From assembly GCA_947626435.1 (NCBI GenBank), contig CANQSB010000009.1, positions 1 to 64,000 of the forward strand: DNA of 64,000 nt, written 5' to 3'. Position numbers and translations under genes: made by a program. The stretch comes from an uncultured Lachnospiraceae bacterium. Its GTDB lineage: Bacteria > Bacillota > Clostridia > Lachnospirales > Lachnospiraceae. Positions 4,849 to 22,107 of this stretch are shown here, one piece after another (the first letter of the stretch is position 1; every line of letters begins with the position of its first letter). Below the pieces are notes generated by a model that did not search any database, was not told where the DNA came from, and was given only the letters and a program-made list of their open reading frames with translations.

Positions 4849-6864
4849 CTACTCATTTATAACATCCGTAATCACCATACCGCCTATCCGCTTCGCTGGC
4901 GCATACACAGCTGCAACGCACGAAACAAAAACCAGCAAAGCCACACTCCCAACAGCAGCAAACGGCACATTCCACGCGCCGCCAAAATGCGTAATGATAA
5001 GCTTCTCATAAATCAGGTAATGAAGCGCAAGCCCCAGCACTAGCCCGACCGCCATGCCGCATACTGCATATGCTGCCGCCTCTGCCGCTATCATTCTCGT
5101 CATCTGGCGGCTCTCCATTCCGACAGCGCGCATTGCGCCGTACTGCCTTGTCCGCGCGGACACGCTCATGGAAATGCTGTTCATAATATTCAGCACAGTG
5201 ATAAGCGATATGATTGCCAGAAATCCATACGCCGCAATCCGAAACACCCAATAACTGCCGTGCATTTCACCCATTTCCTCCCTTCGGTCTGAAAATACGC
5301 CGTCTCCCGAAATGCGCCTGATTTTGTCCACAGTTTCTTCCGAAGCTCCCTTTTCCAATACGACATAAACTGCCTTATATCCTCGCGCGCCTACGAGACG
5401 CTCAAATGTTTCCTCGGAGCAGACGACCACCGCCGAGCCGCTGACGCTGCCTATTCCTTCAGAGGCAACACAGGCTATCTCAAGCTCTCCGCTGCAAAGC
5501 TCTATCCTGTCGCCCACATCAAGCCTGCTGTCTTGGGCAAAAACCGTCATTGCATAGCCCGAATCGCCATAAGCCTTTGACATTTCCCCGTTTATTATGG
5601 ATTTTTCCAACCACCGCCACATATATTCGTCATAGGAAATCAAGTCTATCACAGCCGCATCGCCGTTAATCTTTGCGGGAAGCGCGACCGCGTACATTGT
5701 GCCGATAACGTCGCTTACGCCCTGTATTTCCCTAATCCGCTCCGCAAGGCTTTTGTCCAGAGAATTGTCATTTTCCGCGCTTGCAATCACAAGGTCAGGC
5801 GCAAAATCGCTCTCCGACGGAAGAAGCCTTTGCACAAGGTCAAAGCAGCCCGAAAAAACCAAAAACAGCGCAATCGTAAGCGCAAATGAACCCGTCATAA
5901 GAAACAGATTTTTCCTAGCCTCTGTCGCGTGACGGATTCCAAGAGATATTTCCACCTTGAAAAGCCTTGTGTTTGCCGAATTGGTGATATTCTTAGGCTT
6001 ATCGGCGTTTCCCGATACCGCCGCCACTGGCGGTACTGATGCCGCCTTTCTTGCAGGAGCTGCCGCCGCGAAAAGCACCGTGATAACGCCGACTGCCGCG
6101 CCGCACAAAATCCCGCTCACGCTCACGGCAAAAAGCGGCATATCGGCAAATTCACCCTTTACAAGAAGCTTCAGCAGCGCACACGCCGCCTGACAGACGG
6201 CAATGCCCGACAGACAGCCGATTGGAATTGCCGTTTTGCACCAGTTTAGCGCCTCAAGCCTCACAAAACGCACAATCTGCTGCCTGCTCGCGCCTATGCA
6301 CCTAAGCATTCCGAAAAATTTTGTCCGCTGCGCCACGTTACTGTTCATGCAGCTTGAAATCATAAACACTCCCGCCGCCAATATGATTACAAAGCAGGCT
6401 GCCGCCAAGGGATATAACCCGTCTGCCTTTCCGCGGCTGCTCGCCCCAAGCGCCAGCAGGACACCCGTATTTTCCTTTACATTGGCATCTGAAAGATTAT
6501 ATCTTTGCTTTACGCCGTCTATTGTTTTTTTCAGACCGCGCTCACTTTTAAACTTAATATAAAGCTGCGGGAAATCATAGCCTTCGTCAGCATCTTCACG
6601 GGCTGCGTCTTTCCATTCCGAAAAGGCAATGTCTTCATTTTCGATTATCTGCGCCGCCGTTTCCTCTGTTATGCCGCACAGCGCAATATGCCAGTCGCCG
6701 TGCTTATTTCTCATGCTTTCCAGCTCTGCCCTTGTAAACATCTCCGTCATGGAAAAAATAGACGTCACAAGGAACACGGCAAGAATAATGCAAATCCGCG
6801 TCATACGGCTCTGGCGTTTATGCACGCGCGCTGAAATCGGTATAAGTCCAAGATAGCTTTTCAT
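4849..6864 (-). CDS. ABC transporter permease, MacB/FtsX type
   Basis: A 671-residue membrane permease. Residue 20-40 is a first membrane segment, followed by a soluble domain; membrane segments near 150-280 and near 550-665 form two FtsX-type modules (the second ends with [15 protein letters not shown]). A large extracytoplasmic domain lies between about 330 and 540. This layout fits exporters of peptides, lipoproteins or antibiotics that work with a LolD/MacB-type ATPase. The ATG at 6864 overlaps the ATPase stop codon as ATGA, with GGGGAGG upstream, so the two proteins are made together. The substrate is unknown; the neighbouring two-component system suggests a role in envelope stress or peptide resistance. 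Confidence 0.93.
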
Positions 6865-7544
6865 TCTCCGCACCTCCCCAAATCGGCAAGCACACCGTCT
6901 GAAACCTGCAGCACGCGGTCGGCTGTCTGCGCGATGCCGCGGTTGTGCGTAATCATAATGATTGTCTGCTCGTACTTTTTTGACGCCTCCTTTAACATAG
7001 CGATAACCTCGCTGCTGTTCTGCGAGTCAAGATTGCCTGTCGGCTCATCGGCAAGAATAAGTGACGGACGTGTCATAAGCGCGCGTCCGATTGCTACTCT
7101 CTGCTGCTGCCCGCCCGAAAGCTGGCTTGGCAGATGCCTGCGCCGCTCCTTTAGCTTCAGCGCTTCAAGCAGCTCCTCCATATGCCGCCCGTTCGGCTTC
7201 TGGTAATCAAGCAGGACAGGAAACACCATATTCTGCTCCACTGTAAGCTCTGGTATCAGGTTAAACGACTGAAAGATAAAGCCGATATTGCGCCTGCGGA
7301 ACACAGTAAGCTCCCTCTCCTTCATTGAAAATGTGTCCTTACCGTCAATCAGCACCTTGCCCGAAGTCGGTGTATCAAGCGCACCGAGCATATTCAAAAG
7401 CGTAGTTTTGCCAGAACCCGACTCGCCGACAATCGCCACAAACTCGCCCTTGGCGACGCTAAAGCTGACATCCTTCAAGGCATTTACAGCCGTTTCACCG
7501 CTCCCGTATGTCTTACAGATATTTCTGACTTCCAATAAATTCAT
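6861..7544 (-). CDS. ABC transporter ATP-binding protein, MacB/LolD type
   Basis: A 227-residue ATPase that powers the permease encoded directly downstream. Motifs are all present: Walker [11 protein letters not shown]-loop [13 protein letters not shown], signature [15 protein letters not shown], Walker [14 protein letters not shown] and the switch histidine in MITHNR. The reading frame extends 24 codons further upstream, but the ATG at 7544 has AGGAGG 6 bases before it and begins with the family-typical [14 protein letters not shown], so it is chosen. The upstream leader is long and structured (see leader entry). Confidence 0.96.
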
Positions 7545-7572
7545 CTCAAACCTCCTAAATTTGAATTTCTCA

Positions 7573-7749
7573 CGAAAAACGCCTGCCCTTGGCATTTCAC
7601 AAAGCATTAACATCAATAATCTTTATGAAAAATACCCAACTTTAACATTTCACAAAATATTAATGTCACCCCGAAAAATGCCCGCCTCTTGGCATTTTTC
7701 CAAACATTTAGAAACACTTGGGCAGCGTCTTTTGCTGCCTTAGTGTTTC
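7573..7749 (-). promoter_or_regulatory. Structured leader of the ABC exporter operon: three hairpins
   Basis: The untranslated region between promoter and ATPase start is about 240 bases. On the transcript it can form, in order: a strong hairpin at 7749-7711 (arms GAAACACT and AGTGTTTC continued by GGCAGC/GCTGCC), a second at 7700-7673 (GAAAAATGCC with GGGCATTTTTC) and a third at 7598-7573 (GAAATGCC with GGCGTTTTTCG). The last two are related in sequence, as if duplicated, and each ends in a U-rich arm like an intrinsic terminator. Attenuation is possible but not shown. Confidence 0.5.
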
Positions 7750-7791
7750 TTAATGTTTTTGTTTCTTAATGTTTGTTTCTTAATGTTTTTT

Positions 7792-7835
7792 ATCATAACA
7801 GGCAAATCCTACATCTCCCCTACAGCCGCCCTACA
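7792..7835 (-). promoter_or_regulatory. Response-regulator box (three TGTAGG repeats) and -10 of the ABC exporter
   Basis: On the minus strand three copies of TGTAGG (7835-7830, 7824-7819, 7813-7808) start exactly 11 bases apart, followed 10 bases later by a -10 TATGAT (7797-7792). There is no consensus -35; the last repeats take its place. Direct repeats on one DNA face with this period are the usual target of OmpR/PhoB-type regulators, and such a regulator gene lies next to it. I infer that the response regulator at 8886-9581 activates the exporter here. Confidence 0.68.
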
Positions 7836-7863
7836 GCTTTGTAGGAATGTGACTTCCCAATGC

Positions 7864-8886
7864 TCATACAAGAAAATTCATCGTAAATAAAGTTCCCCTG
7901 CCCAGCTCGCTGTCCACCTCTATCGTACCATCGTGAGCCTCCACTATCGCCTTTGCCAGCGTCAGTCCAAGTCCCAGCCCCTGCGTGTCCTTTGAAAAAC
8001 GGCTTCTGTAAAATCTCTTAAAAATATGATACAAGTCCTCCCGATGTATGCCGCAGCCGTCGTCCCTTACCGCAATACGCACAACCGACGCAAATGCGCT
8101 CCATTCCACACAGACAAGCCCTCCCTCATCAGTATGGTCAAGGGCATTTTTTATCAGGTTTCCAATCGCCTCCTGCAGCCAAGTCCTGTCACAGCAGAGC
8201 ATAACGTCATCGCCGCCCGACAGGCGTATTTCCTTTTTCTCCTGTCTTGCGCGGAACAAAAACTGTCTTTTTGCGCCCGCGGCAAGCTCCGCCACATTCA
8301 CCACTGATTTTTCCAGCACGATTGTGCCAGCGTCAAGCCTTGCAAGCTTCAAAAGGTTCTGCACCAGCGTCTCAATGCGGTCAAGCTCCTGTTCTGACAT
8401 CTGGCAGATTTCCCTAATATCCGACAGCTCCTCCGCCTCATAAAGTATTCCGTTGTAAATATTGAGCGCGGCAAGCGGGGTTTTCAGCTGATGCGAAATG
8501 TCGGATATCGTATCTTGCAGGAATTTTTTGGCGTTCTTTTCTCTTTCCGAATGGGCATTCAAAATCGACGCCAGCGAGTTTATCTCGTGAAACAGCCTGC
8601 AAAGCTCACCCTCGTCATTGCACTCTATATACGCGTCCATATTGCCTGAAACATATTCCGCAATCTGCGAAACCGCCTTTTCCATAAGCCTATTCTGCAC
8701 CTCAAAATACCTGACACACAAAAATAACACGCCGATTCCCTCGCACAAAAAAACCGCCACAACATACAGCGCCGCTCTGCCCCCGTCAAACGAAAGCAAT
8801 AGCGCCAACACTGTCATAGCGGATAAAACACAGGACAAAATGCCCGCAAAAAGGGCTTTAATTTTTCGGTCTGCAAATATCTTCAT
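7864..8886 (-). CDS. Sensor histidine kinase
   Basis: A 340-residue membrane histidine kinase. Two membrane segments at about 13-33 and 40-58 are joined by a loop of only a few residues, so it has no real extracytoplasmic sensor and resembles intramembrane-sensing kinases that monitor partner transporters. The phosphorylated histidine lies in DISHQLKTPLAALN, the N box is GNLIKNALDHT, and the ATP lid has DDGCGI and GLGLGLTLAK. The ATG at 8886 shares its A with the last base of the upstream regulator's TGA stop (TGATG), with GAGG upstream, so the pair is coupled. Confidence 0.95.
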   Translation of the reverse strand: MKIFADRKIKALFAGILSCVLSAMTVLALLLSFDGGRAALYVVAVFLCEGIGVLFLCVRYFEVQNRLMEKAVSQIAEYVSGNMDAYIECNDEGELCRLFHEINSLASILNAHSEREKNAKKFLQDTISDISHQLKTPLAALNIYNGILYEAEELSDIREICQMSEQELDRIETLVQNLLKLARLDAGTIVLEKSVVNVAELAAGAKRQFLFRARQEKKEIRLSGGDDVMLCCDRTWLQEAIGNLIKNALDHTDEGGLVCVEWSAFASVVRIAVRDDGCGIHREDLYHIFKRFYRSRFSKDTQGLGLGLTLAKAIVEAHDGTIEVDSELGRGTLFTMNFLV

Positions 8887-9581
8887 CACTCACCTCTGCC
8901 ATAAACATTCCATTTATATCCCATTCCACGGACTGTCACGATATGCCTCGGCTCGCTGGGATTGTCCTCAATCTTCGTGCGGAGCCTGCGGATATACACG
9001 GTAAGCGAATTGTTGTCTATAAAATTCTCGTCGCAGTCCCACAGCCTGCCCAAAATCTGTTCAGCGGAAAGCACCTGATTAGGATTTTCCATAAAAAAGC
9101 ACAGCAGCTTGTATTCACTCGCCGTCAGGTCAATCCGCCTGCCCGCTTTCCAGACCTCGCCCCTTGTGAGTCTCACGCTAATATCATCGGAGCAAAGCTC
9201 ACCCGCCTGTGCGCCAAAGCCCTCGCTCCTGCGCAGCAGCGCATTAAGCCTTGAGAGGAATACGGCAAGCTTGAAAGGCTTCGTGATATAATCATCGCCC
9301 CCTATGTCAAGCCCCATGATTATGTCCGTCTCATCATCAGCAGCAGTGAGAAACATAATCGGTATCATAGAGCTCTGCCGAATTTTCCTGCAAAAGTCAA
9401 AGCCCGAACCATCGGGCAACGACACATCTAAAATAGCAAGACGATATCTTCCCTCCTCCCACAACGCATCCGCCTCCCTAGCAGTACGCGCCACAGTCAA
9501 TCCATACCCTTGTTTCCTTATAGCAAAGGAAAGCCCGTTTATCAGGCTCAAATCGTCCTCCAACAGAAAAAGCTCTTTCAT
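8886..9581 (-). CDS. OmpR/PhoB-family response regulator
   Basis: A 231-residue response regulator. The receiver domain (residues 1-115) has the acidic pair EDD, the phosphorylated aspartate in LAILDVSLPDG near residue 53, and the lysine in DDYITKPF. The C-terminal winged helix (about 130-228) contains DNNSLTVYIRRLRTKI and ends with VRGMGYKW, typical of the OmpR class. The ATG at 9581 is chosen over an in-frame TTG because AAAGGGG lies 9 bases upstream. It is cotranscribed with the kinase, and its likely target is the TGTAGG repeat array at 7808-7835. Confidence 0.95.
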   Translation of the reverse strand: MKELFLLEDDLSLINGLSFAIRKQGYGLTVARTAREADALWEEGRYRLAILDVSLPDGSGFDFCRKIRQSSMIPIMFLTAADDETDIIMGLDIGGDDYITKPFKLAVFLSRLNALLRRSEGFGAQAGELCSDDISVRLTRGEVWKAGRRIDLTASEYKLLCFFMENPNQVLSAEQILGRLWDCDENFIDNNSLTVYIRRLRTKIEDNPSEPRHIVTVRGMGYKWNVYGRGE

Positions 9582-9610
9582 TCGTGTCAACCCCTTTCAT
9601 ATATGCAACA

Positions 9611-9774
9611 TATTAGGCATTTGCGAAACTCAATTCGATAACGTAGAATTTAGGCAAAATATATAAAATAAGCGGCGTCTTGCAGCTTGCTGCACCTAGC
9701 CGCGTTTTTATATATTTTGACTAAATTCGGACGGTTGAGAACACCTTTTCGCAATTACCTAATACAGCATAATG
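9611..9774. repeat. 164-bp imperfect palindromic element
   Basis: The interval starts TATTAGG and ends CCTAATA, and the two halves match as inverted copies over most of their length: for example TTGCGAAA with TTTTCGCAA, GAATTTAG with CTAAATTC, and CAAAATATATAAAA with TTTTATATATTTTG. The centre holds a short perfect hairpin TGCAGC-TT-GCTGCA. It lies between the two-component genes and the small HTH gene and contains no coding frame. It could be a MITE-like insertion or a large structured RNA; no clear target duplication was found. Confidence 0.68.
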
Positions 9775-9931
9775 ACAAATGTATTCAATATAAATGCACA
9801 ATAAACATCCAAACATAATAATAAGCGGCAACCCAGCCTGCGCATCTCTACAGACAGCGCACCCCAAACTACCACTTACGATTATAAACGATATTCAAAA
9901 TGAGAACAACTTACAATTTTGTAGGGAAAAT

Positions 9932-10153
9932 TTACTCCTCCTCCCCCTCATCTTCAACATATTCCAATATATCCCCAGGCTGGCAGTTCAGCGCCCTACA
10001 TATGGAATTTAACGTCGAAAGCCTCACAGCCTTTGCCTTGTTGTTTTTTAAAATCGAAAGATTGGCAAGCGTGATGTCCACCTCTTTTGCAAGCTCAGTC
10101 AGCCCGACCTTGCGCTTTGCCATCATTACATCAAGATTTATGATAATCGCCAT
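9932..10153 (-). CDS. Small Cro/C1-type HTH regulator (YozG-like)
   Basis: A 73-residue single-domain DNA-binding protein. The helix-turn-helix is RKVGLTELAKEVDITLANLSILKN at residues 12-37, and the ending CRALNCQPGDILEY is typical of the YozG-like family. The ATG at 10153 gives the family's usual N terminus MAIIINLDVMMAKRK, so the 13 extra upstream codons are dropped. It follows a DUF2975 membrane protein gene by 137 bases on the same strand, a pairing common in Firmicutes. Confidence 0.92.
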   Translation of the reverse strand: MAIIINLDVMMAKRKVGLTELAKEVDITLANLSILKNNKAKAVRLSTLNSICRALNCQPGDILEYVEDEGEEE

Positions 10154-10746: not shown

Positions 10747-10841
10747 AACCTCTCCACTCCTCCCTAAACCACTTGCATAGATAAATGCAATAAAAATATC
10801 CCTTTTCCGAGCATCATTTCCAACACATAAAAGCTAAAATA

Positions 10842-11480
10842 TTATACAATTTCTGACAGTTGCAATTGCTTCAAAAAGCGATCCTCAATATAATATTGAA
10901 TATCCAACTTTTCTACCGATTGCTTTTTTGCTTTAATAGGTATTTTTAGTTTACCAAAAGAAACGCTCATTAAACCTATATTCAAATCCCTAAACTGTTG
11001 TCTGTCAACCTTGGACACATATTCTGAACTTAATGCAACATACACTTCATTGGCATATTGCTTATATCGGACCGCTTGTTCCAAACCAGATTTCCAATCA
11101 GAAATTTTTGCTTCTACAGCAATAAAATTTTTAGTGACAGCATCTACCTTTTTTACAGAGGTAATATAATTACCCTCAATTTTTACATACCCCATATCTT
11201 CTAATTCTCGAAGAAAATGATAAAATTTCTTTCCAATTTGCCCATCTGATATCTCGACATCTTCCAAATTAACTTTTTTATTATTATAAATATCACTAAA
11301 ATAATAATACGCATTAAAATATTCATCAAACACAACATTGCTTCTGTTAATTTCAGTTGAATAAACAATATCTGCAATATTATTTCCACCCCGTAACTCT
11401 CTGACAATATAATGTGTCCCAAATCTTTCCCGCAAATCAGAAACCAATTTTTCTACTAATGCTTTTTCATTTACAAACAT
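10842..11480 (-). CDS. Winged-helix protein with PD-(D/E)XK nuclease-like domain
   Basis: A 212-residue protein I do not recognise as a named family. Residues about 85-105 (FLRELEDMGYVKIEGNYI) look like a winged helix. The following region has aspartate at VDAV, then FIAVEAKISDW nine residues later, which is the D-x9-E-x-K pattern of PD-(D/E)XK nucleases, followed by EQAVRYKQYANEVYVAL, the helix and strand usually seen after it. The ATG at 11480 has AGGTGAGAG upstream and is preferred to the GTG three codons earlier. It is the last gene of the island with the kinase and MmeI-like enzyme. Confidence 0.68.
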   Translation of the reverse strand: MFVNEKALVEKLVSDLRERFGTHYIVRELRGGNNIADIVYSTEINRSNVVFDEYFNAYYYFSDIYNNKKVNLEDVEISDGQIGKKFYHFLRELEDMGYVKIEGNYITSVKKVDAVTKNFIAVEAKISDWKSGLEQAVRYKQYANEVYVALSSEYVSKVDRQQFRDLNIGLMSVSFGKLKIPIKAKKQSVEKLDIQYYIEDRFLKQLQLSEIV

Positions 11481-11503
11481 ATCTCTCACCTGCTACTTTG
11501 CTT

Positions 11504-13501
11504 CTAAATTATCTTTTTTAAATTTTTCAGTAACTTATAATAGTCTGTATTTTTTTGAGTTCCCAAAATTTCTTTTGGTATCGCATCAAGATTATTTAAA
11601 GCTGATTTAATCCGATCCTTCAAATAAGTAATTTTATCATTTACTGCACATTCATTTATCTTATCAACTTCCTCTATCATCATCTGCCAATGATGCAGCT
11701 GTATGCTTTTATCTCCTGTGCCTATTTCAATCGCTGATTTTCCACTGCACCACTTACAATTGCAGCCTCCAAAATAGTCATAAAGCTGTTTAAATGCAAA
11801 TGTGTCCTTTTTGGGATATGTCAAAAATGATAATACTTGCGGAAAATAAAATTTTGAGTATAAATTAAATGAATCTTTTTCCTCTTTTATGTACTGCTCA
11901 TCAAAATAATCAATACTTGCCAGCCCCAGAGAAAAACCGTGTATTCCCTTCGCAATCAATGTCAGCCCTAAAGGAATCGGAACTTTCAATGCAATCACAG
12001 GTTTATTCGTATATTTTTGCAAATTAATCATAAAATCAAGATAACTTCCCAACGATTGTTCATTTAACTGTTTCATATCAGAAACCTGTACAATAAATCC
12101 ATCTACCTGCGCATGAACAAAATAAGACAATATTTTATCTGCCTGAAACACCAAATGACCAAGCCCTATTGATATCATTGCATACTTCTCTTTTCCTTCA
12201 TCCACCACCTGTACGCTTTCATCAATTAATTGAATGTTTATTTTAATCCAATCATCTATTTTATCTACAGAATAATCTGTATTGCTGATATAATGGTATG
12301 GTAAAATCAATTTTTGTCCCATAGACACTGTAGAATACCATGTCTCGATATATTCTTTTCGCTTATTTGGATTATGTAAATATTCTAAGGAAATAACTCC
12401 CTTATCTGGTGAATAAGGTAGATCTATCAGCCCCTTTGTATTAGCAAATGCAACATACGATAATCTTTGTGTAGAAGGATCAATAATTACATTTTTAAAA
12501 TTATTTTTTGCAAAATATAAATGTAAATTTTTCATCCAATTTTGAACATGGATAGGATAAATAATATCCGATTTATTTACATTCTCAAATTGCTCTGTCA
12601 CATCTTTCTCTCGATATATCCAAGCGTAATATTTTCCTACTGTTATCAGTTCTTCTTGAATATTATCTTTTTCAAAAGCATCTATGAACTCATCAACTGT
12701 CTGAAAACGTGCATATGGCTCTTTCGCAGTCGCTTTAAATATAATTCTTTCCAACCCATCACTAATATTAGGATTATACTGTCTAGGCGGAATAATTGGA
12801 TCATTCAATATTTTCAATAGCAATTCGGGTAATGTTGCTGCTTTGTATGGAATATTCTTTGTCAACATCTCATATAAAATAATTCCTAATGCATATATAT
12901 CAGCCCTGTAGTCAATATGCTTGCTGTCCCTTAATTGTTCTGGCGACATATATAATGGCGACCCGATTTGTGTTCCTGTTGAGGTTATTGAAGAAAAATC
13001 TATAATTTTGCTCAAGCCATAATCAATGATTTTAACATTCAAATTTTTATCAATCATTATGTTATCTGGCTTTAAATCTCTATGAACGATACCTTCTCTT
13101 TCAATTATTGTAGTGTGCAACTCCTTTACCCCATTTAAAATATCCACAAAAATGTGAATTAATACGTCAGGCGAAGACGCTGTTTTCAAAAAATTTCTCA
13201 AAGTTATGCCTTCAAAATACTCCATTACAATGACATATTCCATGATACCAAATTCATTTTCAAAATAGAAATCCTCTTGATATTGAATCAGGTTTTTACC
13301 CTTTACATTTTTTAAAACGTCAATTTCTCTCGTAATTCGATTCTGTTCGTTTTTAAATTCATCTAATATATAAGTCTCCGACAAGACTTTTGCGGCATAC
13401 TTTTTACCGTTCTTCGATACCTTGTATACATCTCCAAAACTTCCACTTCCAAGTGCTTCTTCAAATAAATACTCATTGATTACTCGTCCAACAATATTCA
13501 C
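11504..13501 (-). CDS. Ser/Thr protein kinase fused to a TIM-barrel-like, CxCxxC...H domain
   Basis: A 665-residue protein. Residues 8-275 are a complete Hanks-type kinase: glycine loop GSGSFGDV (18-25), lysine K38, HRDLKPDN (140-147), DYG in place of DFG (160-162) and SPE (186-188). No membrane segment or PASTA repeat follows. Residues about 305-665 look like an alternating beta/alpha barrel that ends in GGCNCKWC (580, 582, 585) and a pair of histidines at 603-604, and contain GFSLGLAS (522-529). This recalls the zinc site CxCx2C...H and substrate loop of tRNA-guanine transglycosylases; that is an inference. The GTG start at 13501 has GAGG 9 bases upstream and avoids overlap with the restriction gene. 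Confidence 0.86.
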   Translation of the reverse strand: MNIVGRVINEYLFEEALGSGSFGDVYKVSKNGKKYAAKVLSETYILDEFKNEQNRITREIDVLKNVKGKNLIQYQEDFYFENEFGIMEYVIVMEYFEGITLRNFLKTASSPDVLIHIFVDILNGVKELHTTIIEREGIVHRDLKPDNIMIDKNLNVKIIDYGLSKIIDFSSITSTGTQIGSPLYMSPEQLRDSKHIDYRADIYALGIILYEMLTKNIPYKAATLPELLLKILNDPIIPPRQYNPNISDGLERIIFKATAKEPYARFQTVDEFIDAFEKDNIQEELITVGKYYAWIYREKDVTEQFENVNKSDIIYPIHVQNWMKNLHLYFAKNNFKNVIIDPSTQRLSYVAFANTKGLIDLPYSPDKGVISLEYLHNPNKRKEYIETWYSTVSMGQKLILPYHYISNTDYSVDKIDDWIKINIQLIDESVQVVDEGKEKYAMISIGLGHLVFQADKILSYFVHAQVDGFIVQVSDMKQLNEQSLGSYLDFMINLQKYTNKPVIALKVPIPLGLTLIAKGIHGFSLGLASIDYFDEQYIKEEKDSFNLYSKFYFPQVLSFLTYPKKDTFAFKQLYDYFGGCNCKWCSGKSAIEIGTGDKSIQLHHWQMMIEEVDKINECAVNDKITYLKDRIKSALNNLDAIPKEILGTQKNTDYYKLLKNLKKII

Positions 13502-13542
13502 TTGTGTTTTCCTCACTTTCACTAAAAATGCAAATAATGTTT

Positions 13543-16317
13543 TTACGCAGTTACAATTTTCTGATACATCTTCATCAGTTCTGCCACGCATTGAGTTTCA
13601 GTCGTATCTTTTATAGAAAAACCATATGCCCGCATAACTGCCTTGTCGTTTTCAGTATGCGCCTGCCTCAAATCGCTTGGCATTGTCAAATCACCATATA
13701 AATCTGCCAGTGAGCTTTTTGTATATTTATTCCTTACATCAAGTATTCGTTGTGCCGTTGTTCTAATTTTTTCTTTTGAATTTTCATTAAGTTCGGGCCA
13801 CGGAAACGTGTTATACACCACGCTAACCGAATATGTAAAATCTTCCCGCAATCGTCCTGCTACTGCTCGTAACCAAGCATTATGCACATTTGATGATAAT
13901 ATTCCAAATTCATATAATCCACCGTCACGCATCACTTGCAACTTATTATTTACCATAACATCAGGAGTAAGAAATCCAATAGGCACATATCTCCTGCGCC
14001 CTGATGAAGTTTGTGGAATAACAAGATATTCCTGCTCTGGCATATTCTCAAAATGAAACTTTGCAGGCGTTTCTGCAAGTTTGTATGTCTGAACACTTGA
14101 TGAGGATAGCCTATACTCTCGTATTTCTTTTAGCTTTTCTAAAACTAATGGCATATGTGATAATTCATTGGGCGGGATGCGGTTTATTATCAGGAACCAT
14201 CGTTCAATATTATTTATAAACTCCTTACTGCCCATATATTTATAAAAATATGGTTCCGACTTTGGCTCTTGTTTAATAAATTCTGCCTTTTCCTCTGGTG
14301 TAAAGGCACATATAGCATTATCTAACGGTTTACTGCCGTTACTTATAAGCGGTACATCGCATATTGGTTTCTTTTGCCCATCAATCCACAAATCAGGCGC
14401 ATCAAGCAAATAGCCATTTATATGCGTTGCAAGCGACTTCTGCTTATCCTCAACTATATATTTCTTTTGCACTTGCTGCCCTATAGTAAATAGGATAATA
14501 ACACAATGCACACCCGCCTTAATTTTCGCCTCACTCTCCCAGTTAAAAGAACGAATAGCATAAAAAATATCCAATCCATATTTCTCAAAAAGAATTTTCC
14601 ACAATAATACAACCTGTTCCCCTTGAGTAATAGAGCTTGTTGAAACAAATCCCGCCCTTACATTAGTGCCTTGCATAAAACGTGCTGCTTTAATATACCA
14701 TAATGAAACATAATCCAAATCACCATTTTTAGGAAATTCTTTTGCAACAGTGTTCATATCTTGCCTTTGAGCGGTCCCCATTCTCCTACCTGCCGAAAAC
14801 GGTGGATTACCCATAATATAATCCAACTCGCTTTTATGGATTACATTATCCCATTCAATTTCCATAGCGTTCCCCTCAACAATATTCGCATACGATTTCA
14901 GCGGCAAAAAGTCAAGGCTCATATGCACTATGTCCTCTGTTTCCTTCATCATCTGGCTTTCCGCAATCCATAGTGCCGTTTTTGCGACAGTTACGGCAAA
15001 ATCATTAATTTCAATTCCATAAAACTGGCTGATTGATACCTGTATGGGATTGATTGCATCTCCAAGCACTATCTGCCCACTCTGCAATTCATAAAGTACC
15101 TCATTTTCAAGTCGCCGCATTGATATATAGGTTTCCGTTAAGAAATTTCCTGAACCGCACGCTGGATCAAGAAATTTCAATCTCGCAAGTTTTTCTTGAA
15201 ATGCGTTCAGCCTTGCTTTCTTTGTTCGTTCTACTGCAATCCCCTTAATCTCGTCAAACTCGGCTCTAAGCTCATCCATAAATAGCGGATTGATAACCTT
15301 GTGTATGTTCTCAATGGAAGTATAGTGCATACCTCCGCTCCGCCTCGTTTCAGGATTTAATGTACTTTCAAATACTGCCCCAAAGATAGTCGGGCTTATG
15401 TCTGACCAGTCAAAATCTGCACTTGCTTTATTCAAGAGCAGGCTTTTGAGTTCCTCGGTAAACGGCGGTATCTCTATGGTTTCATCTGCGAACAGTCCGC
15501 CATTAACATATGGGAACGCCGCAAGCTTTGGATTATCCTCCGACAAATATTTGTCCCTGTCCTCTGGCTTAGTGTCTAGTATCTTAAACAGTTCTACAAG
15601 TGCTTTGCGAAAACCATTTATAGGAATGTCCTTCAGATAATCATGAAACATCATATGCGCGCCAAAAATACCTGCGTCCTCTGCATACAGGCAGAAAACA
15701 AGGCGCACACACAAAGCATTAAGGCTCTTAAAAGACTGCTCATCAGGCTCTTTGTACTGCACTATCAGCTTATCATAAAGCAGACCGACAATCTCCCCCG
15801 CCTTGACCGATATTTCCATTTCGTGGGAAAGCTCCTTGACTTCTTTCTTGAACATAAAATCAAACAGCGGCAGCTTGTTGCGCACTTCCTCAAGTGGAAT
15901 GACTGTTGCAGGCTCATTTGGCTTATTCATATCGTGTATTTCAAAGGTCTTGAAATTACAGGCAACTATCCATAAGGGTGTTTCATTAGGTATCATCCAT
16001 TGTGCGTAATTGCGTCCCTGCTCAAACGGTGTTCGCATTGTCCCGTCTGACTGTTGCGCTTTCTTACTCAAATCCTTATCTATGCTTTTCTGCTCTATCA
16101 GCACTCTTGTTTCAGGTATGTAGACATCTATGAATTTCGTCTGACCGTCCACGACTACACGCTTTTCAAAAATGATTTTCTTTGTCACATCTTCTATCCC
16201 AAGCACATTGCTGAAAAACTCAATCCAGAAACGCTGGCTGTCGCTTTTCTCGTCCCCGATGCCCCGCCAATCATTGTAAAATTTAGTAGCTGCTGATCTC
16301 TTTTCCGCCTCTGTCAT
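13543..16317 (-). CDS. MmeI-like type IIL restriction-modification enzyme (nuclease + N6-adenine methyltransferase)
   Basis: A 924-residue single-chain enzyme. The N-terminal nuclease shows D64-x10-E75-Q-K77 (FIDVYIPETRVLIEQK), as in MmeI. A helical linker follows; the methyltransferase has DPACGSG (384-390) and NPPF (504-507), the gamma-class amino-methyltransferase arrangement. The last 350 residues would hold the target recognition region. Length and order match MmeI (about 919 residues), so one polypeptide should both methylate and cut DNA, with a specificity that cannot be read from sequence alone. The ATG at 16317 is preferred because its SD (ATGAGG) overlaps the upstream ATG. It is the first gene of the island. 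Confidence 0.92.
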   Translation of the reverse strand: MTEAEKRSAATKFYNDWRGIGDEKSDSQRFWIEFFSNVLGIEDVTKKIIFEKRVVVDGQTKFIDVYIPETRVLIEQKSIDKDLSKKAQQSDGTMRTPFEQGRNYAQWMIPNETPLWIVACNFKTFEIHDMNKPNEPATVIPLEEVRNKLPLFDFMFKKEVKELSHEMEISVKAGEIVGLLYDKLIVQYKEPDEQSFKSLNALCVRLVFCLYAEDAGIFGAHMMFHDYLKDIPINGFRKALVELFKILDTKPEDRDKYLSEDNPKLAAFPYVNGGLFADETIEIPPFTEELKSLLLNKASADFDWSDISPTIFGAVFESTLNPETRRSGGMHYTSIENIHKVINPLFMDELRAEFDEIKGIAVERTKKARLNAFQEKLARLKFLDPACGSGNFLTETYISMRRLENEVLYELQSGQIVLGDAINPIQVSISQFYGIEINDFAVTVAKTALWIAESQMMKETEDIVHMSLDFLPLKSYANIVEGNAMEIEWDNVIHKSELDYIMGNPPFSAGRRMGTAQRQDMNTVAKEFPKNGDLDYVSLWYIKAARFMQGTNVRAGFVSTSSITQGEQVVLLWKILFEKYGLDIFYAIRSFNWESEAKIKAGVHCVIILFTIGQQVQKKYIVEDKQKSLATHINGYLLDAPDLWIDGQKKPICDVPLISNGSKPLDNAICAFTPEEKAEFIKQEPKSEPYFYKYMGSKEFINNIERWFLIINRIPPNELSHMPLVLEKLKEIREYRLSSSSVQTYKLAETPAKFHFENMPEQEYLVIPQTSSGRRRYVPIGFLTPDVMVNNKLQVMRDGGLYEFGILSSNVHNAWLRAVAGRLREDFTYSVSVVYNTFPWPELNENSKEKIRTTAQRILDVRNKYTKSSLADLYGDLTMPSDLRQAHTENDKAVMRAYGFSIKDTTETQCVAELMKMYQKIVTA

Positions 16318-16438
16318 AATATACCTCATATTCTATAAAAAATATTTTCAAATAATTACCACTGATATATTATCATAAATCTATTGAAAAATCAGCAAAA
16401 ACCATAAACTTTTATTATCTGCAAGGATTAAATGCATA

Positions 16439-16486
16439 AAAAATTTTCCCTTGTAAAACACCACATAAGGGCAAAAACAAGGGAAA
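16439..16486 (-). terminator. Intrinsic terminator of the acylation operon
   Basis: On the minus strand TTTCCCTTG and CAAGGGAAA (16486-16478 and 16453-16445) form a 9-bp stem, followed by ATTTTTT. It lies 47 bases beyond the stop codon of the DHHW gene and ends that four-gene operon. Confidence 0.7.
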
Positions 16487-16532
16487 GGTACATAATTTAA
16501 AACTAATCTAAACAAAGCTACACCCTAACAAT

Positions 16533-17657
16533 CTAATAAACTCCCCCAACCCCCAAATCCCCATCAATCGTATTCATATTATACAACAACACCACATCAA
16601 CCTCACAATCAAGCCCTTCCACAAACGCCGCCACTCCCTTTTTATAATACCTAGTGTCAAAAACATAAATCCTCTCATAATGATGCGCCAAAAACGGCAC
16701 CATAGAATTAGCATAACTATCCTTGACAAGCACAAGCGTCCTATCGCTCTGCGCATTTTCGTTCGTAATCTCTATCAGCGGATGAAGATTGTCAAGGAAA
16801 AGCGAATACTTGTCCTTTTTCTTCAGATATTCCAAATTGTACAGACTGTCAGTGACCACTCCCGTATCCGTATAATTGACACTAAGACAGTCATCAGAAC
16901 GGGTATAAATCGTTATTCTGTCGCCATCTAAGCTGTAGTCATTCGCCTTTGAATACAACGTCCCAAAAAAATCCTGCGTCACAACCTCTGCATCCCAGTT
17001 CTCCAACGCTTCCGCTTCGAACCCCATCTCCTCACAAAACGCCTTATACCCCACATACGCCCCGAAAGTCGTCCAATGATGGTCCGTCCTATAATAAACC
17101 TCCCCCTCATCCCTACTCTGCATAAGCATATTGCTACAGTCAATCGGCGCAATCCCCGTCATCTCATACAGCCGCCTTGCCGTATCCATCTGATTTCTGA
17201 CAGGCGCATTGGCAGGCAGCTTATCACTGTTTACATACACAGCCGTCGGCACAAGCATTAGATGCACCTCCGCCTTGCCGTCAAGCTTCTCCGCAAAGCT
17301 CTTAAAAATCCTCCCAATCCTCTCCGTATTTTCAGGCGCAGAATAATCCTCAATAAGACTACCATCATCAACCAAAAATATACCGTTTATCTCCCTCTTG
17401 CCCAATGCCTTGAGCACAGCCGTCTTCGCTCCCACAAACGCATCGCGCAGCGGAAAATGGTCGGCAAGGTAATCGTTGACGCCATCCATATAATCGCCAC
17501 TTCTCACAGCTTCCCACGTAAAAGCAGGCATTTTCGCAAGATAACGGTTTTCATTTTCCGAAAATTCCTTTTTGTCCAAAAGCACAAGCAAAGCCGCCAA
17601 GCCAAGCACGCATGCAAAAATGCCGTATGCCGTGATTTTTCTCATAGTGACTTTCAT
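16533..17657 (-). CDS. DHHW-family protein (AlgX/AlgJ-like, surface acylation)
   Basis: A 374-residue protein anchored by one N-terminal membrane segment (about 8-26), with the rest outside the membrane. YYRTDHHWTTFG near residue 195 is the DHHW signature of the SGNH-like AlgJ/AlgX group, and a later VLVKDSYANSMVPFLA resembles their nucleophile block. In known systems such proteins transfer acetyl groups delivered by an MBOAT protein to a polysaccharide. Here the MBOAT gene lies directly upstream (40 bases), which supports that role. The polymer modified is unknown. Confidence 0.9.
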   Translation of the reverse strand: MKVTMRKITAYGIFACVLGLAALLVLLDKKEFSENENRYLAKMPAFTWEAVRSGDYMDGVNDYLADHFPLRDAFVGAKTAVLKALGKREINGIFLVDDGSLIEDYSAPENTERIGRIFKSFAEKLDGKAEVHLMLVPTAVYVNSDKLPANAPVRNQMDTARRLYEMTGIAPIDCSNMLMQSRDEGEVYYRTDHHWTTFGAYVGYKAFCEEMGFEAEALENWDAEVVTQDFFGTLYSKANDYSLDGDRITIYTRSDDCLSVNYTDTGVVTDSLYNLEYLKKKDKYSLFLDNLHPLIEITNENAQSDRTLVLVKDSYANSMVPFLAHHYERIYVFDTRYYKKGVAAFVEGLDCEVDVVLLYNMNTIDGDLGVGGVY

Positions 17658-17697
17658 CTGCCACTCTCCCCTTTAAAAGCCAATTCCCATTAATCAT

Positions 17698-19167
17698 TTA
17701 AAACCTAAAATACAAAAACGGATTGTAAGTATCACTCACCAAAAACGCCACAGACACCAAAAACAGTGCCATATATCCGACAGCCGACACAATATAAACC
17801 GCCCTCATCCTTAAGCTCTGCTCACCCGCAGACGCCTCAATCCTCTCCAGCCTCTCCTTTACCCAAGGATACACAGGAAACGCAAGCACAACCGCTACAA
17901 GTAGCACAGCGCCGTAATTGCCAAGATACCACAAGCACTCACTCCCCCACAACGGATTACCCGCAAGCAGCAGCATCGAGCTGATAAACAGCTTAATCTC
18001 ACCCATATCCTCGCATACAAAAATGACGAACCCGACTACCACAATAATTATCGAGTACAAATGCTGGAAAATTTTTGGCAGCTTTTTCAGCCATTTCCCC
18101 CACACATATTTTTCCAGCGCAAGCAGTACGCCATGATACAGCCCCCAAAGCACAAAATTCCAAGCCGCACCGTGCCAAAGTCCCGTAAGAAACCACACGA
18201 CAAACATATTCCTCAGATGTCTCGCCGTACCCTTTCGGTTGCCTCCCAGCGGAATATAAACATAATCGCGAAACCACGTACCAAGCGAAATATGCCATCT
18301 ACGCCAAAAATCCGTTATGGAAACGCTCGAAAGCGGATATACGAAATTTTCAGGGAAGTGGAACCCCAACATACGCCCCATGCCAATCGCCATATCGCTG
18401 TACGCGCTAAAATCAAAATAAAGCTGCAGCGTAAATGCCGCCGCCCCAAGCCATGCCGTAGCAGCCGACATATGCGCCAAAGCCTGTATCCCTGACGCGG
18501 CGGACGTTCCCTCCACTCCAAGCAGATGTATCTCCTCCCAGAGCGCACCTACATTATTTGCCAGCAGCACCTTTTTAAAAAGTCCCCGCAAGAAACGCAG
18601 AAACCCCTCATAAACCTCGGTCTTATCTATTCTGCGCCCGCGCAATTCTTTCTGCACAGTCGCATACCGCACGATAGGTCCCGCCACGAGCTGCGGGAAC
18701 ATTGACACATATGTCAGATAATCCTTATAGCTTTTTTCAACAGGCACTTCTCCCTTATACAAGTCAATGGTATAGCTCATAGTCTGAAAAGTAAAAAAGC
18801 TGATGCCCACAGGCAGCCCCAGCCCAAGCGGTTTGACGGACGTATTAAAAATCCCGTTTACCGTCCCAATTAAAAAATCCGCGTATTTGAAAAAGGCAAG
18901 CACAGACAGATTTATTCCCACTGAAATAATGAGAAAAATCCGCCTTCTGCCCGCCGTCGTCCCAAACCGCGTCATAAGCCTGCCGCTACAGTAGTCCACC
19001 ATCGTGGCAAACAGCAACAGCAAAATATATACAGGCTCGCCCCAAGCATAAAATATGAGGCTGAATACAAGCAATACCGTGTTTTTATATTTATAAGGAA
19101 CAAGATAATACAAAATCAGGCAAAGCGGTAAAAAGAAAAATAAGAACGGTATGCTACTGAAAACCAC
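17698..19167 (-). CDS. MBOAT-family O-acyltransferase (AlgI/DltB-like)
   Basis: A 489-residue polytopic membrane protein. VSITDFWRRWHISLGTWFRDY and GLWHGAAWNFVLWGLYHG contain the conserved histidines of the AlgI/DltB branch of membrane-bound O-acyltransferases, which move acetyl groups across the membrane. It starts with GTG, with AGGAGG upstream, 14 bases after the DUF4358 gene stop. With the neighbouring DHHW and SGNH proteins it should form an O-acetylation machine for a surface polymer. Confidence 0.95.
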   Translation of the reverse strand: MVFSSIPFLFFFLPLCLILYYLVPYKYKNTVLLVFSLIFYAWGEPVYILLLLFATMVDYCSGRLMTRFGTTAGRRRIFLIISVGINLSVLAFFKYADFLIGTVNGIFNTSVKPLGLGLPVGISFFTFQTMSYTIDLYKGEVPVEKSYKDYLTYVSMFPQLVAGPIVRYATVQKELRGRRIDKTEVYEGFLRFLRGLFKKVLLANNVGALWEEIHLLGVEGTSAASGIQALAHMSAATAWLGAAAFTLQLYFDFSAYSDMAIGMGRMLGFHFPENFVYPLSSVSITDFWRRWHISLGTWFRDYVYIPLGGNRKGTARHLRNMFVVWFLTGLWHGAAWNFVLWGLYHGVLLALEKYVWGKWLKKLPKIFQHLYSIIIVVVGFVIFVCEDMGEIKLFISSMLLLAGNPLWGSECLWYLGNYGAVLLVAVVLAFPVYPWVKERLERIEASAGEQSLRMRAVYIVSAVGYMALFLVSVAFLVSDTYNPFLYFRF

Positions 19168-19181
19168 TGTCTGCCGCCCTC

Positions 19182-19709
19182 CTAGATGCCTGCTTCTATT
19201 ATTTCAAGGATTGCGTCCTTATTTTGAGAAATCACAAGCCATACATAGCTGCCCTTTGAATCCACAGAGCTTTTGTCCACAATCTCAAACTGCTCGGGCA
19301 AATAATTCTCCATTTCCGCGCGCTTCTCATCTATTACCGTACTAAGCGCCGCCTCTATGTCCGCTACCGAAGCTTCGTCCTTTGCCTTCATAATTACGAC
19401 CGTTTCCGCGCTTGTCGCATCTTCGGACATCGAGAAGACATATTCCTCCAATGTATCCGGCTCTATTCCATAATAATTTGAAATAAACTCGTCGTCCATC
19501 TCCACAGGCGATATAAGCTCGACATTCTTAGTTATCTCGTCATATATCTCACTGATTGCTTTTGGTTCTTCAGCCGTTTCATCTGCTTCCTGAGTCGATA
19601 CGCCGTTCGACACCGCGGCAGCGCTTTCCTCCGCTCCACCGCAGCCGCCAAGCAATGCCGCGCTGATAAGTATTGCCGCAAAACCATATTTATATGATAC
19701 TTTTTTCAT
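19182..19709 (-). CDS. DUF4358-family lipoprotein
   Basis: A 175-residue predicted lipoprotein with lipobox AALLGGCGG near residue 22, an acidic linker, and a DUF4358-like domain whose core includes EEYVFSMSEDATSAETVVIMKAKD. Proteins of this family are often encoded with MBOAT and SGNH genes in Lachnospiraceae, but their role is not known. It probably sits on the outer membrane face as an accessory part of the acylation operon. Confidence 0.88.
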   Translation of the reverse strand: MKKVSYKYGFAAILISAALLGGCGGAEESAAAVSNGVSTQEADETAEEPKAISEIYDEITKNVELISPVEMDDEFISNYYGIEPDTLEEYVFSMSEDATSAETVVIMKAKDEASVADIEAALSTVIDEKRAEMENYLPEQFEIVDKSSVDSKGSYVWLVISQNKDAILEIIEAGI

Positions 19710-19774
19710 TTTCTCCTCATTTCTTCACTGTGTTCTTACATACCCCTACAGCACAGAAGCCAATCACAGTAAAT

Positions 19775-20647
19775 TTATTGTTTCTCTGCCTCGCCGTTAT
19801 TGAACTTCTCAGAGCTTTCATTTTCTTCCGTTTCTACACCGCTAAGCTGCTGCGCGGCATAATCCTTTAAAACCGAAACCCACACATCATACGCCGCCGC
19901 ATTCTGGTGTACAAAGCCGTCACTGCAAAACTTTTCCGCCAAATCGCCGTTCTCGTCAGCAAGCGCATCGGCAAGGCTGACATAGCCCCACTCGTTCTCT
20001 TTGGCAAGCTCCTCAAGCATCGTATTGAACTCGCGGATTGTATCGTTTTTAAGATTGCCCTTTTCTTTTCCATGAAGCACATAGGTCACGCTCATTATAT
20101 AAACTTCAGCGTCAGGGCAGCTTTCCTCTATTTTCTCTATCAGCTCCTTATACTTGTCGCGCGTCTTTTCAAGGCCGTAAACATTCAAATCGTTCATGCC
20201 GAGCATAATGAACACGCGCCTACTCTCCATAAGCGCAAGGCTGTCCCAGATATAGCGCTTCTGACCTTTGTATACGGGATGAACGCTCTTTTTATTTTTT
20301 GTGTCCCAAAACGCGTTGTTTACCGAAAGGCTGCCCGCTGCAAGGAATTTCATGCGGCTAAGCAGCGTATCCTCCTTGCGTTTCTGGGTATAATTGCGAA
20401 AACCAAGCATAACGGAATCGCCCACAAATACGGAATCATCATAGAAGCCCTCTATCTCCTCCTGAGTAAGCTCCAAAGGCTTGCCGCCGTTTTCCTCTTC
20501 AGTGCCTGCTTCCGTCGCTTGTTCAGTTGTCGCGTTAATCGGGGCTTGCCCGCCATCCTGCGCCGCCTGCGCGATTATTTCATTATTTACAAGAACCGCA
20601 GCCATAAGGCACAGCGCCAGACCGCAGCCATAAAATTTTTTAATCAT
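19775..20647 (-). CDS. Exported SGNH/GDSL hydrolase
   Basis: A 290-residue secreted hydrolase. A signal peptide (residues 1-30) is followed by a low-complexity linker rich in Glu and Thr. The SGNH blocks are visible: FVGDSVMLGF with the nucleophile serine, GMNDLNVYG, and DGFVH with the catalytic Asp/His. It likely removes or transfers acyl groups on a surface polymer. The ATG at 20647 has GGGTGA just upstream and gives a proper signal peptide, so the earlier in-frame start is not used. First gene of the acylation operon. Confidence 0.93.
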   Translation of the reverse strand: MIKKFYGCGLALCLMAAVLVNNEIIAQAAQDGGQAPINATTEQATEAGTEEENGGKPLELTQEEIEGFYDDSVFVGDSVMLGFRNYTQKRKEDTLLSRMKFLAAGSLSVNNAFWDTKNKKSVHPVYKGQKRYIWDSLALMESRRVFIMLGMNDLNVYGLEKTRDKYKELIEKIEESCPDAEVYIMSVTYVLHGKEKGNLKNDTIREFNTMLEELAKENEWGYVSLADALADENGDLAEKFCSDGFVHQNAAAYDVWVSVLKDYAAQQLSGVETEENESSEKFNNGEAEKQ

Positions 20648-20694
20648 CAGTTCACCCTTCATTCTTTTGCCGTATATAGGTAAGTGCCATGCTC

Positions 20695-20727
20695 AAATCG
20701 ACAGGCCGTTATTTAACCTGTCGATTT
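20695..20727 (-). promoter_or_regulatory. Inverted repeat at the start of the acylation operon transcript
   Basis: AAATCGACAGG (20695-20705) and CCTGTCGATTT (20717-20727) form a perfect 11-bp inverted repeat with an 11-base loop. It begins 2 bases beyond the -10 and covers the expected transcript start region, so it could be a repressor site or an RNA stem-loop. No T-run follows, so it is unlikely to be a terminator. Confidence 0.55.
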
Positions 20728-20728
20728 A

Positions 20729-20757
20729 AGTATATCTTTGTCATTATAAAATGTCAA
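20729..20757 (-). promoter_or_regulatory. Promoter of the acylation operon
   Basis: On the minus strand TTGACA (20757-20752), a 17-base spacer and TATACT (20734-20729) form a near-perfect vegetative promoter that reads into the SGNH hydrolase gene 80 bases downstream. Confidence 0.8.
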
Positions 20758-20792
20758 CCCACAAGGCGTTAAGATTTGGCGTTATTTGGCGT

Positions 20793-21971
20793 TTATGCCG
20801 CCGCGTTATCAGGCGCCTTGGCGTACAGCAGCTTCAGCAGTATGGGCACCAAAACTGATGATACGATTATCAACAGGATTACCGCCGTAAAGAACTGGGA
20901 AGACATAAGCCCTACGGAAAGCCCTTTCTGCGACACTATCAGCGCAACCTCGCCGCGCGTCATCATTCCCACGCCGATTTTAAGGCAGTCATACCCCTTA
21001 AAGCCGCACAGCCTCGACATCAGCCCGCAGCCTATTACCTTTGAGATTAGCGCGACAATGATAAATGCTATTGAGAAAAGCACCAGCGAGCTGTCTATGC
21101 CGTCTATGTTCGTTTTCAGCCCGATGCTTGCAAAAAACACAGGTCCGAAGAACATATAGGAGTTGATGTCGATTTTTTCATCTATATATTTGGAATCCCT
21201 GATACTGCACAGGATTATGCCCGCCACATACGCGCCCGTAATGTCCGCTATGCCGAAATATTTCTCCGCCGCGTACGCGAGAAACAGGCAGAACGCCAGC
21301 CCCGCAATCGGAATGCGGCGCGTGTGCGGATAGCGGTTGTCAACATATTTGAACAGCTTGTAAAAAATTATGCCCAAGACGGCGGCAAGCACGAAGAATA
21401 ATATAGTGTTTATGACAACCTTGCTCGGGCTCGACGACGGGCTCTTAAAGCCGATTACGAATGTGAGCACTATGATGCCGATAACATCATCGATTATCGC
21501 CGCGCTCAAAATCGTAGTGCCGACATGGCTCTGCAAATGCCCCATCTCCTTGAGCGACTGCACCGTAATGCTCACTGATGTCGCCGTCATAATGCACCCC
21601 GTAAAAATCGCCTTGTAAAACTCCTCCGTCCCCTGAGCCGACCAGAACACCTTATACAAAAGCGCGCCCATTACAAGCGGCACAAACACGCCCGCACACG
21701 CAATCAGAAACGCAATCGGTCCTGTCTTTAAAAGCTCCTTTAAGTCAGTTTCCAGTCCCGCGGAAAACATTAGCAGGATAACGCCTATCTCCGCCATGTC
21801 GGCGAGGAAATCGGTCTGGCGCACCCAGCCTAAGACGCTTGGCCCTATAAGAAGTCCCGCGACAATCATGCCGACCACTTGCGGGGCTTTTAGCTTTCTG
21901 GCTACTATGCCGCACAGCTTCGCTGCCACTATTATTATAGCCAAATCCCTAAACACTTCATACGGTTCCAT
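20793..21971 (-). CDS. Cation:proton antiporter (CPA2/Kef type)
   Basis: A 392-residue integral membrane protein with about 12 segments. AAIIDDVIGIIVL carries the double aspartate that marks CPA2-type antiporters, and GMMTRGEVALIVSQ near residue 335 is also typical. It lacks the C-terminal RCK/TrkA-N domain seen in KefB/C, so gating by nucleotide or glutathione is unlikely. It should exchange Na+ or K+ for protons across the membrane. It has AGGAG upstream and appears to be transcribed alone. Confidence 0.93.
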   Translation of the reverse strand: MEPYEVFRDLAIIIVAAKLCGIVARKLKAPQVVGMIVAGLLIGPSVLGWVRQTDFLADMAEIGVILLMFSAGLETDLKELLKTGPIAFLIACAGVFVPLVMGALLYKVFWSAQGTEEFYKAIFTGCIMTATSVSITVQSLKEMGHLQSHVGTTILSAAIIDDVIGIIVLTFVIGFKSPSSSPSKVVINTILFFVLAAVLGIIFYKLFKYVDNRYPHTRRIPIAGLAFCLFLAYAAEKYFGIADITGAYVAGIILCSIRDSKYIDEKIDINSYMFFGPVFFASIGLKTNIDGIDSSLVLFSIAFIIVALISKVIGCGLMSRLCGFKGYDCLKIGVGMMTRGEVALIVSQKGLSVGLMSSQFFTAVILLIIVSSVLVPILLKLLYAKAPDNAAA

Positions 21972-22107
21972 TTTTTCATTTCTCCTCTTTTTTCGTTATT
22001 TAATTCCAATATGGATTTTAGCACTACTGTACTGCTCATTCAACTGATTTTTTATAATTTTTTAAGGATTTTTCAGGGATTTTTTTTAAGTATTTTGGAA
22101 AAAACAC

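Follow-up and report, generated by a model that had tools for sequence, protein, structure and literature searches.

A kinase, a tail domain, and a PD-(D/E)xK-type nuclease as a candidate mobile anti-phage module

Introduction

The 64,000-nucleotide stretch of an uncultured Lachnospiraceae bacterium analyzed in this work (GenBank assembly GCA_947626435.1, contig CANQSB010000009.1, positions 1 to 64,000; hereafter the window) carries three neighboring genes that encode an MmeI-like restriction-modification (RM) enzyme, a Hanks-type kinase fused to a C-terminal tail domain of ~395 aa, and a nuclease-like protein of 212 aa. Do these genes form an undescribed defense locus, as the original prediction made from the letters alone had proposed, and which of them belong together? 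The proposal stood in part: the locus is defense-associated and the kinase and nuclease belong together, but the MmeI-like enzyme is not a core part. The conserved unit consists of the kinase, the tail domain, and the nuclease, with a length of about 2.7 kb. With some reservation, we favor the interpretation that these parts form one mobile anti-phage (anti-invader) module, in which the tail would act as a receptor and the kinase would license the nuclease.

Conservation of the kinase, tail, and nuclease genes

A scan of genome contigs with a tail profile found 10 loci (loci and genomes are given as L and G numbers where they need to be told apart). The nuclease gene adjoins the fused kinase-tail gene in all 10, and the MmeI-like gene is present as well in four; in L013, the contig ends within the nuclease gene, and in L016, the reading frame of the tail is broken. 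The nuclease profile was run on 398 phylum genomes and matched 24 at E ≤ 1e-3: that of the window itself, ten strong ones (E ≤ 1.2e-11), and thirteen weak ones (E from 2e-5 to 1e-3), with adjacency seen for one of the weak genomes, G179, via its tail. The tail is adjacent in nine of the ten strong matches, from which the window's own is excluded (a 147-aa part only in G353; weak in G308, E = 7e-10, and in G259, E = 9e-9), and the tenth, G321, has a kinase followed by the contig end. The kinase is adjacent in seven of these ten, cut by the contig start in G358, and absent in G308 and G259.

Searching the same 398 genomes with the tail profile A8 gave nine matches at E ≤ 2.2e-12 besides that of the window, and the nuclease is adjacent in all nine (as a stub at the contig end in G179). 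Because A8 was built partly from these loci, the matches are not independent finds, but the adjacency is. Four weaker A8 matches were obtained, and the two that were opened (G205 and G115) are tail fragments with no nuclease. Narrower searches gave 5 of 98 relatives and 4 of 392 genomes of the order, and a search with the Bacillota-type tail gave 2 of the 398 phylum genomes, with the window genome included in each count. Five loci that repeat others (L006-L009 and L078, which repeat L010, L014, L018, L019, and L017, respectively) were left out of the counts.

The kinase and tail undergo fusion and fission, and the kinase-less pairs keep the nuclease and tail together. These pairs, in which the tail has a CxCxxC motif, occur in two phylum genomes (L104 and L105) and one phage-like contig (L052).

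The original prediction named two outcomes that would speak against it, namely, a kinase tail that is widespread without its partners or homologs that are housekeeping genes. The tail was not found widely without the nuclease, which is adjacent in 10 of 10 loci and 9 of 9 strong tail matches. The homologs do not look like housekeeping genes, because their distribution is patchy and they are found on plasmids, on phage-like contigs, and in defense loci.

Copies on plasmids and phage-like contigs

Seven plasmid records carry the module (queries: the window tail, the Priestia nuclease, and a phage-like nuclease and tail). These are from Priestia, Bradyrhizobium, Natribaculum, Polaromonas, Kocuria, Arthrobacter, and Kineococcus and span Bacillota, Pseudomonadota, and Actinomycetota, plus one haloarchaeon (Natribaculum). 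The kinase, tail, and nuclease stand side by side in all seven; the Bradyrhizobium copy has broken frames and the Natribaculum record is unannotated. Priestia and Kocuria have a fused kinase-tail gene, and the other five have separate genes for the two parts. In Bradyrhizobium, Natribaculum, and Polaromonas, the nuclease gene comes first; in the other four, it is convergent.

In IMG/VR, we found nine distinct phage-like loci with the nuclease family. Five have all three genes (L021, L048, L049 with a partial kinase, L053, and L055); L051 has a tail remnant and the nuclease, L052 has the nuclease and tail, and the contig of L054 ends with the nuclease. Neighboring genes include those for a terminase small subunit (L021), a portal protein (L053), and an amidase (L055), as well as AlpA, a phosphoesterase, and a primase in L048. 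Judging from its Pfam domains, this primase may be of P4 type. The calcineurin-like phosphoesterase gene (238-996) adjoins the three genes in this P4-like element; the placement of a phosphatase beside a kinase may be due to chance. A DNA-only search of 20,395 Escherichia coli records gave no match to the L048 copy, phage records gave no match to the window tail or the L048 tail, and further viral scans returned no relative, or the contig of L021 again.

Features of the three parts

The kinase domain matches Pfam Pkinase at E = 1.5e-47, and the HRDLKPDN and IIDYG motifs of a Hanks-type kinase are intact. AAKV is present in the translation at the candidate ATP lysine, as read by eye, the pattern check being too loose for this residue. 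Across the loci, HRD is kept in 25 of 26 kinases and DxG in all 26. All NCBIfam matches of the whole kinase-tail protein fall in the kinase part, and the tail is conserved across alignments A2, A7, and A8 without a match in Pfam (no family over the cut-off), PADLOC, or PHROGs. The description of this gene as a Hanks-type kinase joined to an unknown C-terminal domain was borne out. The gene starts with GTG, preceded by TGAGGA; in relatives such as L014 and L015, this residue is encoded by ATG.

For the nuclease, no family was over the cut-off in Pfam, NCBIfam, or PHROGs and no PADLOC match was found (weak matches: Pfam E = 0.061; NCBIfam sce7726, 18 bits versus a cut-off of 70; PHROGs E = 0.005). 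Among 12 diverse members, E5, E123, K125, W129, Q135, A136, and G169 are invariant and D37 and R138 are nearly so, and the strict ExK...W...QA pattern was found in 31 of 33 (the exceptions are L107 and L108). In the single sequence, a D-x9-E-x-K pattern had been called nuclease-like. The D37...E123-x-K125 pattern is not a chance one, because it is kept in relatives together with Q135, A136, and R138, as expected for a PD-(D/E)xK nuclease. The AlphaFold2 model has a mean predicted local distance difference test score of 69.7 (moderate confidence). Residues about 45-115 look like an inserted winged helix; the insert has weak profile matches to transcription regulators and winged helix-turn-helix proteins, and the Polaromonas nuclease lacks it.

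The tail had been called transglycosylase-like. A weak colinear profile match and the CxCxxC motif in a subset of members agree with this, whereas tests for a significant profile match to the tRNA-guanine transglycosylase (TGT) family and for its nucleophile gave negative results; a TGT-like barrel is suggestive only. The best PDB match of a 12-member tail profile is an archaeosine TGT, with CxCxxC...H in register, at E = 0.42. The tail profile A7 matches TGT profiles in hhalign (P = 1e-4 and 2.8e-4), and the second of these matches is colinear over 237 columns. A 16-member profile gave P = 0.0018 and 0.0013; against DpdA alone, P = 0.22. Reversed profiles (P = 0.19 and 0.27) and two nuclease profiles (P = 0.29 and 0.5) served as controls. 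None of 150 column shuffles scored above 23.6, compared with 41.8 for the real profile. In further shuffles (100 and 200, same seed), two reached 132-135 over 11-19 columns, apparently an artifact of near-empty columns, and the others scored at most 20.5, compared with 39.5.

The TGT signal relies on the zinc region: P was 0.0036 and 0.016 with only the CxCxxC subset, 0.082 and 0.042 with the subset that lacks this motif, and 0.02-0.5 when the zinc/C-terminal part of the tail was removed. The CxCxxC...H zinc site is present in the Bacillota fused members, L028, L029, L052, L104, and L105 and absent in L021, L025-L027, L048, L049, L053, and L055. The Asp of the FDCV motif is the TGT nucleophile. 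In the tail family, the positions aligned to it are S/E/A/G, in a part where the alignment is uncertain; if TGT-like, the tail thus appears to lack this nucleophile. We did not assign the tail to TGT, as there is no match to TGT in Pfam or PADLOC, no significant profile match to TGT/DpdA (hhalign P from 1e-4 to 0.086, depending on the profile), and apparently no nucleophilic Asp. The Asp of a tail Asp-Pro motif is found in 25 of 25 aligned members and the Pro in 23.

The MmeI-like enzyme and the window locus

Consistent with the original prediction, the first gene encodes a complete MmeI-type single-chain RM enzyme: all five MmeI Pfam domains (N-terminal nuclease, helical, methylase, target recognition domain [TRD], and C-terminal) are above the cut-off in one chain, and the protein scores 1096 bits against PADLOC REase_MTase_IIG. 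An alternative ATG start is at 16329. Its inclusion in a trio was not supported. With tblastn, MmeI was found in only 4 of 38 loci besides the window (L010-L013), such that it is confined to one clade, and we rejected it as a core part. It is present in 5 of the 14 fused kinase-tail loci (the window, L010-L020, L027, and L079) and in none of the split-gene loci; its absence in L015 and L019 is not firm, because the upstream sequence there is short. Separately, at a distance of about 3.7 kb from the module genes, L025, on a haloarchaeal plasmid, has a short methylase-like match to MmeI (13357-13740; 28% over 135 aa).

The window and L010 (genome G017) are 95-100% identical across 10801-13500 and 15001-17400 and 52-72% identical across about 13500-15000. 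Within MmeI, the identity is 99% in the N-terminal domain, 71% in the methylase, and 39% in the TRD. The RM specificity was thus exchanged while the kinase and nuclease remained unchanged: recombination swapped the methylase-TRD half, and a type IIG enzyme switched its specificity in nature. In G028, of the same genus, the flanks are 94 and 82% identical and joined without the locus, which indicates that MmeI, kinase-tail, and nuclease were gained or lost as one 5.7-kb block.

All three open reading frames (ORFs) are intact, and their positions confirm the predicted head-to-tail arrangement on one strand with intergenic gaps of 41 and 23 bases (Table 1). The locus is also more AT-rich than its surroundings, as had been stated (31-42% GC in 11001-16000 versus 43-52% in 5001-10000 and 17001-24000). 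Elsewhere in the window, an EcoRII-type endonuclease gene (PF09019 and PF09217) adjoins a C5 cytosine methylase gene at 24307-26629, forming a second RM system, and a HepT-like RNase with a helix-turn-helix-nucleotidyltransferase fusion is encoded at 3730-4522 (HEPN/MNT toxin-antitoxin type).

Table 1. Coordinates of the locus features in the window.
Feature	Position	Strand	Remark
PD-(D/E)xK-type nuclease, 212 aa, with winged-helix-looking insert	10842..11480	-	Motif residues conserved
Nuclease motif Glu123-x-Lys125	11106..11114	-	Family alignment and pattern check
Nuclease motif Asp37	11370..11372	-	Family alignment and pattern check
Hanks-type kinase fused to ~395-aa C-terminal domain, 665 aa	11504..13501	-	Kinase domain about 12701-13465, tail about 11507-12691
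Tail CxCxxC	11747..11764	-	TGT-like zinc site in some members, with a His further on at 11693-11695
Tail Asp-Pro	12476..12481	-	Alignment of 25 members
MmeI-like type IIG RM enzyme	13543..16317	-	Local partner, not core
MmeI methylase 3′ part, TRD, and C-terminus, replaced (specificity swap)	13550..15000	-	Comparison of two loci otherwise 95-100% identical
Block absent as a unit from related genome G028	10763..16515		298 unrelated bases there

Defense neighbors

Defense genes are found next to several copies of the module. PADLOC was run on 18 neighbor proteins picked by eye in eight loci, and 17 matched at 1e-5. The neighbors in L018, a BREX locus, are BrxC, a PtuA-like ATPase, and PglX; the kinase gene starts 36 bases after that of PglX, an LmuA-like gene follows the nuclease, and two ORFs further upstream look like candidates for BrxB and BrxA. 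HmaB and HmaC are directly upstream of the module in L108. The other loci have LmuA and LmuB (L014), PDC-S02 and a type III restriction enzyme (L017), type III Mod and Res (L020), a type III restriction enzyme (REase_III) and PDC-S06 (L051), an LmuB-like gene and PDC-M62A (L100), and part of a type I methylase (L102). On the Bradyrhizobium plasmid, two Fic genes and one gene with a SAVED domain lie close to the module.

Possible function and alternative explanations

The co-conservation of the three parts across phyla and domains of life, their mobility, the kept catalytic motifs, and the defense neighbors in the chosen loci are consistent with a role in defense. In such a role, the tail, possibly a TGT-like barrel without the nucleophile, may serve as the receptor for a base or nucleic acid linked to an invader and gate the kinase, and phosphorylation by the kinase would then license DNA cutting by the nuclease. 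Where a methyltransferase system (MmeI, PglX, or HmaBC) precedes it, the module may act as a second layer; its position directly behind MmeI, PglX, and HmaC fits this, as argued for PARIS in PMC12839542 (section 35). The existence of kinase-less pairs suggests that the tail and nuclease are able to work without the kinase, which fits the tail as receptor, the nuclease as effector, and the kinase as relay.

Several points weigh against this interpretation. The association with defense genes has neither a rate nor a control, because the neighbors were picked by eye, and no defense gene is visible by eye near some copies (e.g., L079, L103, L106, and L107). L052, L104, and L105 have no kinase, and the nuclease of L050 (1446-2174), near where its phage-like contig ends, has neither kinase nor tail nearby. 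That the kinase acts on the nuclease is something we infer. The relation of the tail to TGT is weak: the A8 profile, with 23 members, gave hhalign P = 0.021 and 0.086 (0.0017 and 0.0031 with 25 members realigned), and a PDB search with this larger profile gave no TGT.

A more specific and tentative proposal, which we consider possible at best, is a new class of immune modules in bacteria and archaea, in which the catalytically retired TGT-like barrel of a receptor kinase would read an invader-linked base or nucleic acid or sense inhibition of the neighboring methylase, and phosphorylation would release a winged-helix PD-(D/E)xK nuclease.

An unlikely alternative is that the module guards restriction in a PARIS-like manner, sensing not the invader itself but inhibition of the neighboring methylase or restriction system by anti-restriction proteins and then triggering the nuclease. 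The module is directly downstream of MmeI in the window and L010-L013, of PglX in L018, and of HmaC in L108, and PMC12839542 (section 35) describes PARIS beside BREX as such a back-up. However, the ORF or gene lists show no directly adjacent RM gene for L021, L048, L053, L055, Arthrobacter, and Kineococcus; in L021, an HsdR-N-like gene lies about 1 kb upstream. The co-location may reflect defense islands only.

A toxin-antitoxin or addiction system, in which the kinase-tail would keep a toxic nuclease inactive and module loss would kill the cell, appears quite improbable. The module is compact, mobile, and borne by plasmids and phages, and the nuclease is convergent to the kinase-tail in Priestia, Kocuria, Arthrobacter, Kineococcus, L048, L049, and L055, such that it has its own transcription unit. 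The kinase-less pairs and the solitary nuclease of L050 do not fit this explanation, and the size and defense context are unlike those of usual toxin-antitoxin pairs. Finally, a Dpd-like system in which the tail is an active enzyme marking self DNA or tRNA and the nuclease cuts unmarked DNA is very improbable; the colinear weak match to TGT that includes CxCxxC...H and the nuclease partner agree with it, but the nucleophile position (in an uncertain alignment) is not Asp, several tail members lack the zinc site, and, with no search aimed at them, no Dpd or preQ0 genes are named in the annotated plasmid records.

Comparison with known systems

The tail and nuclease families are linked in Lachnospiraceae, on phage-like contigs, and on a haloarchaeal plasmid, yet neither has a confident match in Pfam, PADLOC, NCBIfam, or PHROGs. 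If the module acts in defense, it contributes a nuclease gated by a kinase, together with a receptor domain of a new kind, and BREX, Hma, and type IIG restriction may gain a second layer from it; the module is small and directly testable.

The known systems that have one part in common with the module (PglW, MADS, PD-T4-6, and Dpd/BRC) either fail their own defining tests here or share the kinase domain only. PD-T4-6 and Stk2 share a single Hanks kinase domain (module kinase versus PADLOC PD-T4-6, E = 1.1e-60), and the match is confined to that domain. To our knowledge, a comparable tail or nuclease partner is missing from these systems. Similar to MADS (MAD2 methylase and MAD6 kinase), the window locus combines a methylase with a related kinase domain; however, the MAD6 match excludes the tail and scores 136 bits versus a cut-off of 460, and the conserved module has no methylase. 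Among the PADLOC matches (best 25 of 37 per long protein), mad2 (methylase region) and mad6 (kinase domain) were the only mad genes. PglW of BREX type 2 brings a PD-(D/E)xK-clan nuclease and a Hanks kinase into one defense system (PMC12839542). The kinase domains are similar (NF033442, E = 2.6e-25), but the module kinase reaches 88 bits versus a curated cut-off of 990, the nuclease is a separate gene of another family, and the tail is unmatched.

The likeness to TGT, DpdA, and BRC is limited to the tail, with the differences in database matches and nucleophile described above; BRC systems with TGT have seven components, including PglZ, HerA, and GNAT, and no kinase (PMC12839542). The module also shares the scheme of a sensor plus a nuclease with PARIS, which serves as a back-up layer next to BREX (PMC12839542, section 35), but PARIS uses an ABC ATPase sensor and a TOPRIM nuclease, without a kinase. 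The part of PMC12839542 on second-layer nucleases argues such a role for PARIS and other nucleases and does not describe the kinase-tail-nuclease set. The set is also unnamed in the titles and abstract openings among the literature matches listed, a scope that excludes preprints and most subscription papers. Overall, we regard the module as a candidate for an undescribed kinase-gated nuclease, probably with an anti-phage role, that is sometimes added to methylation-based restriction.

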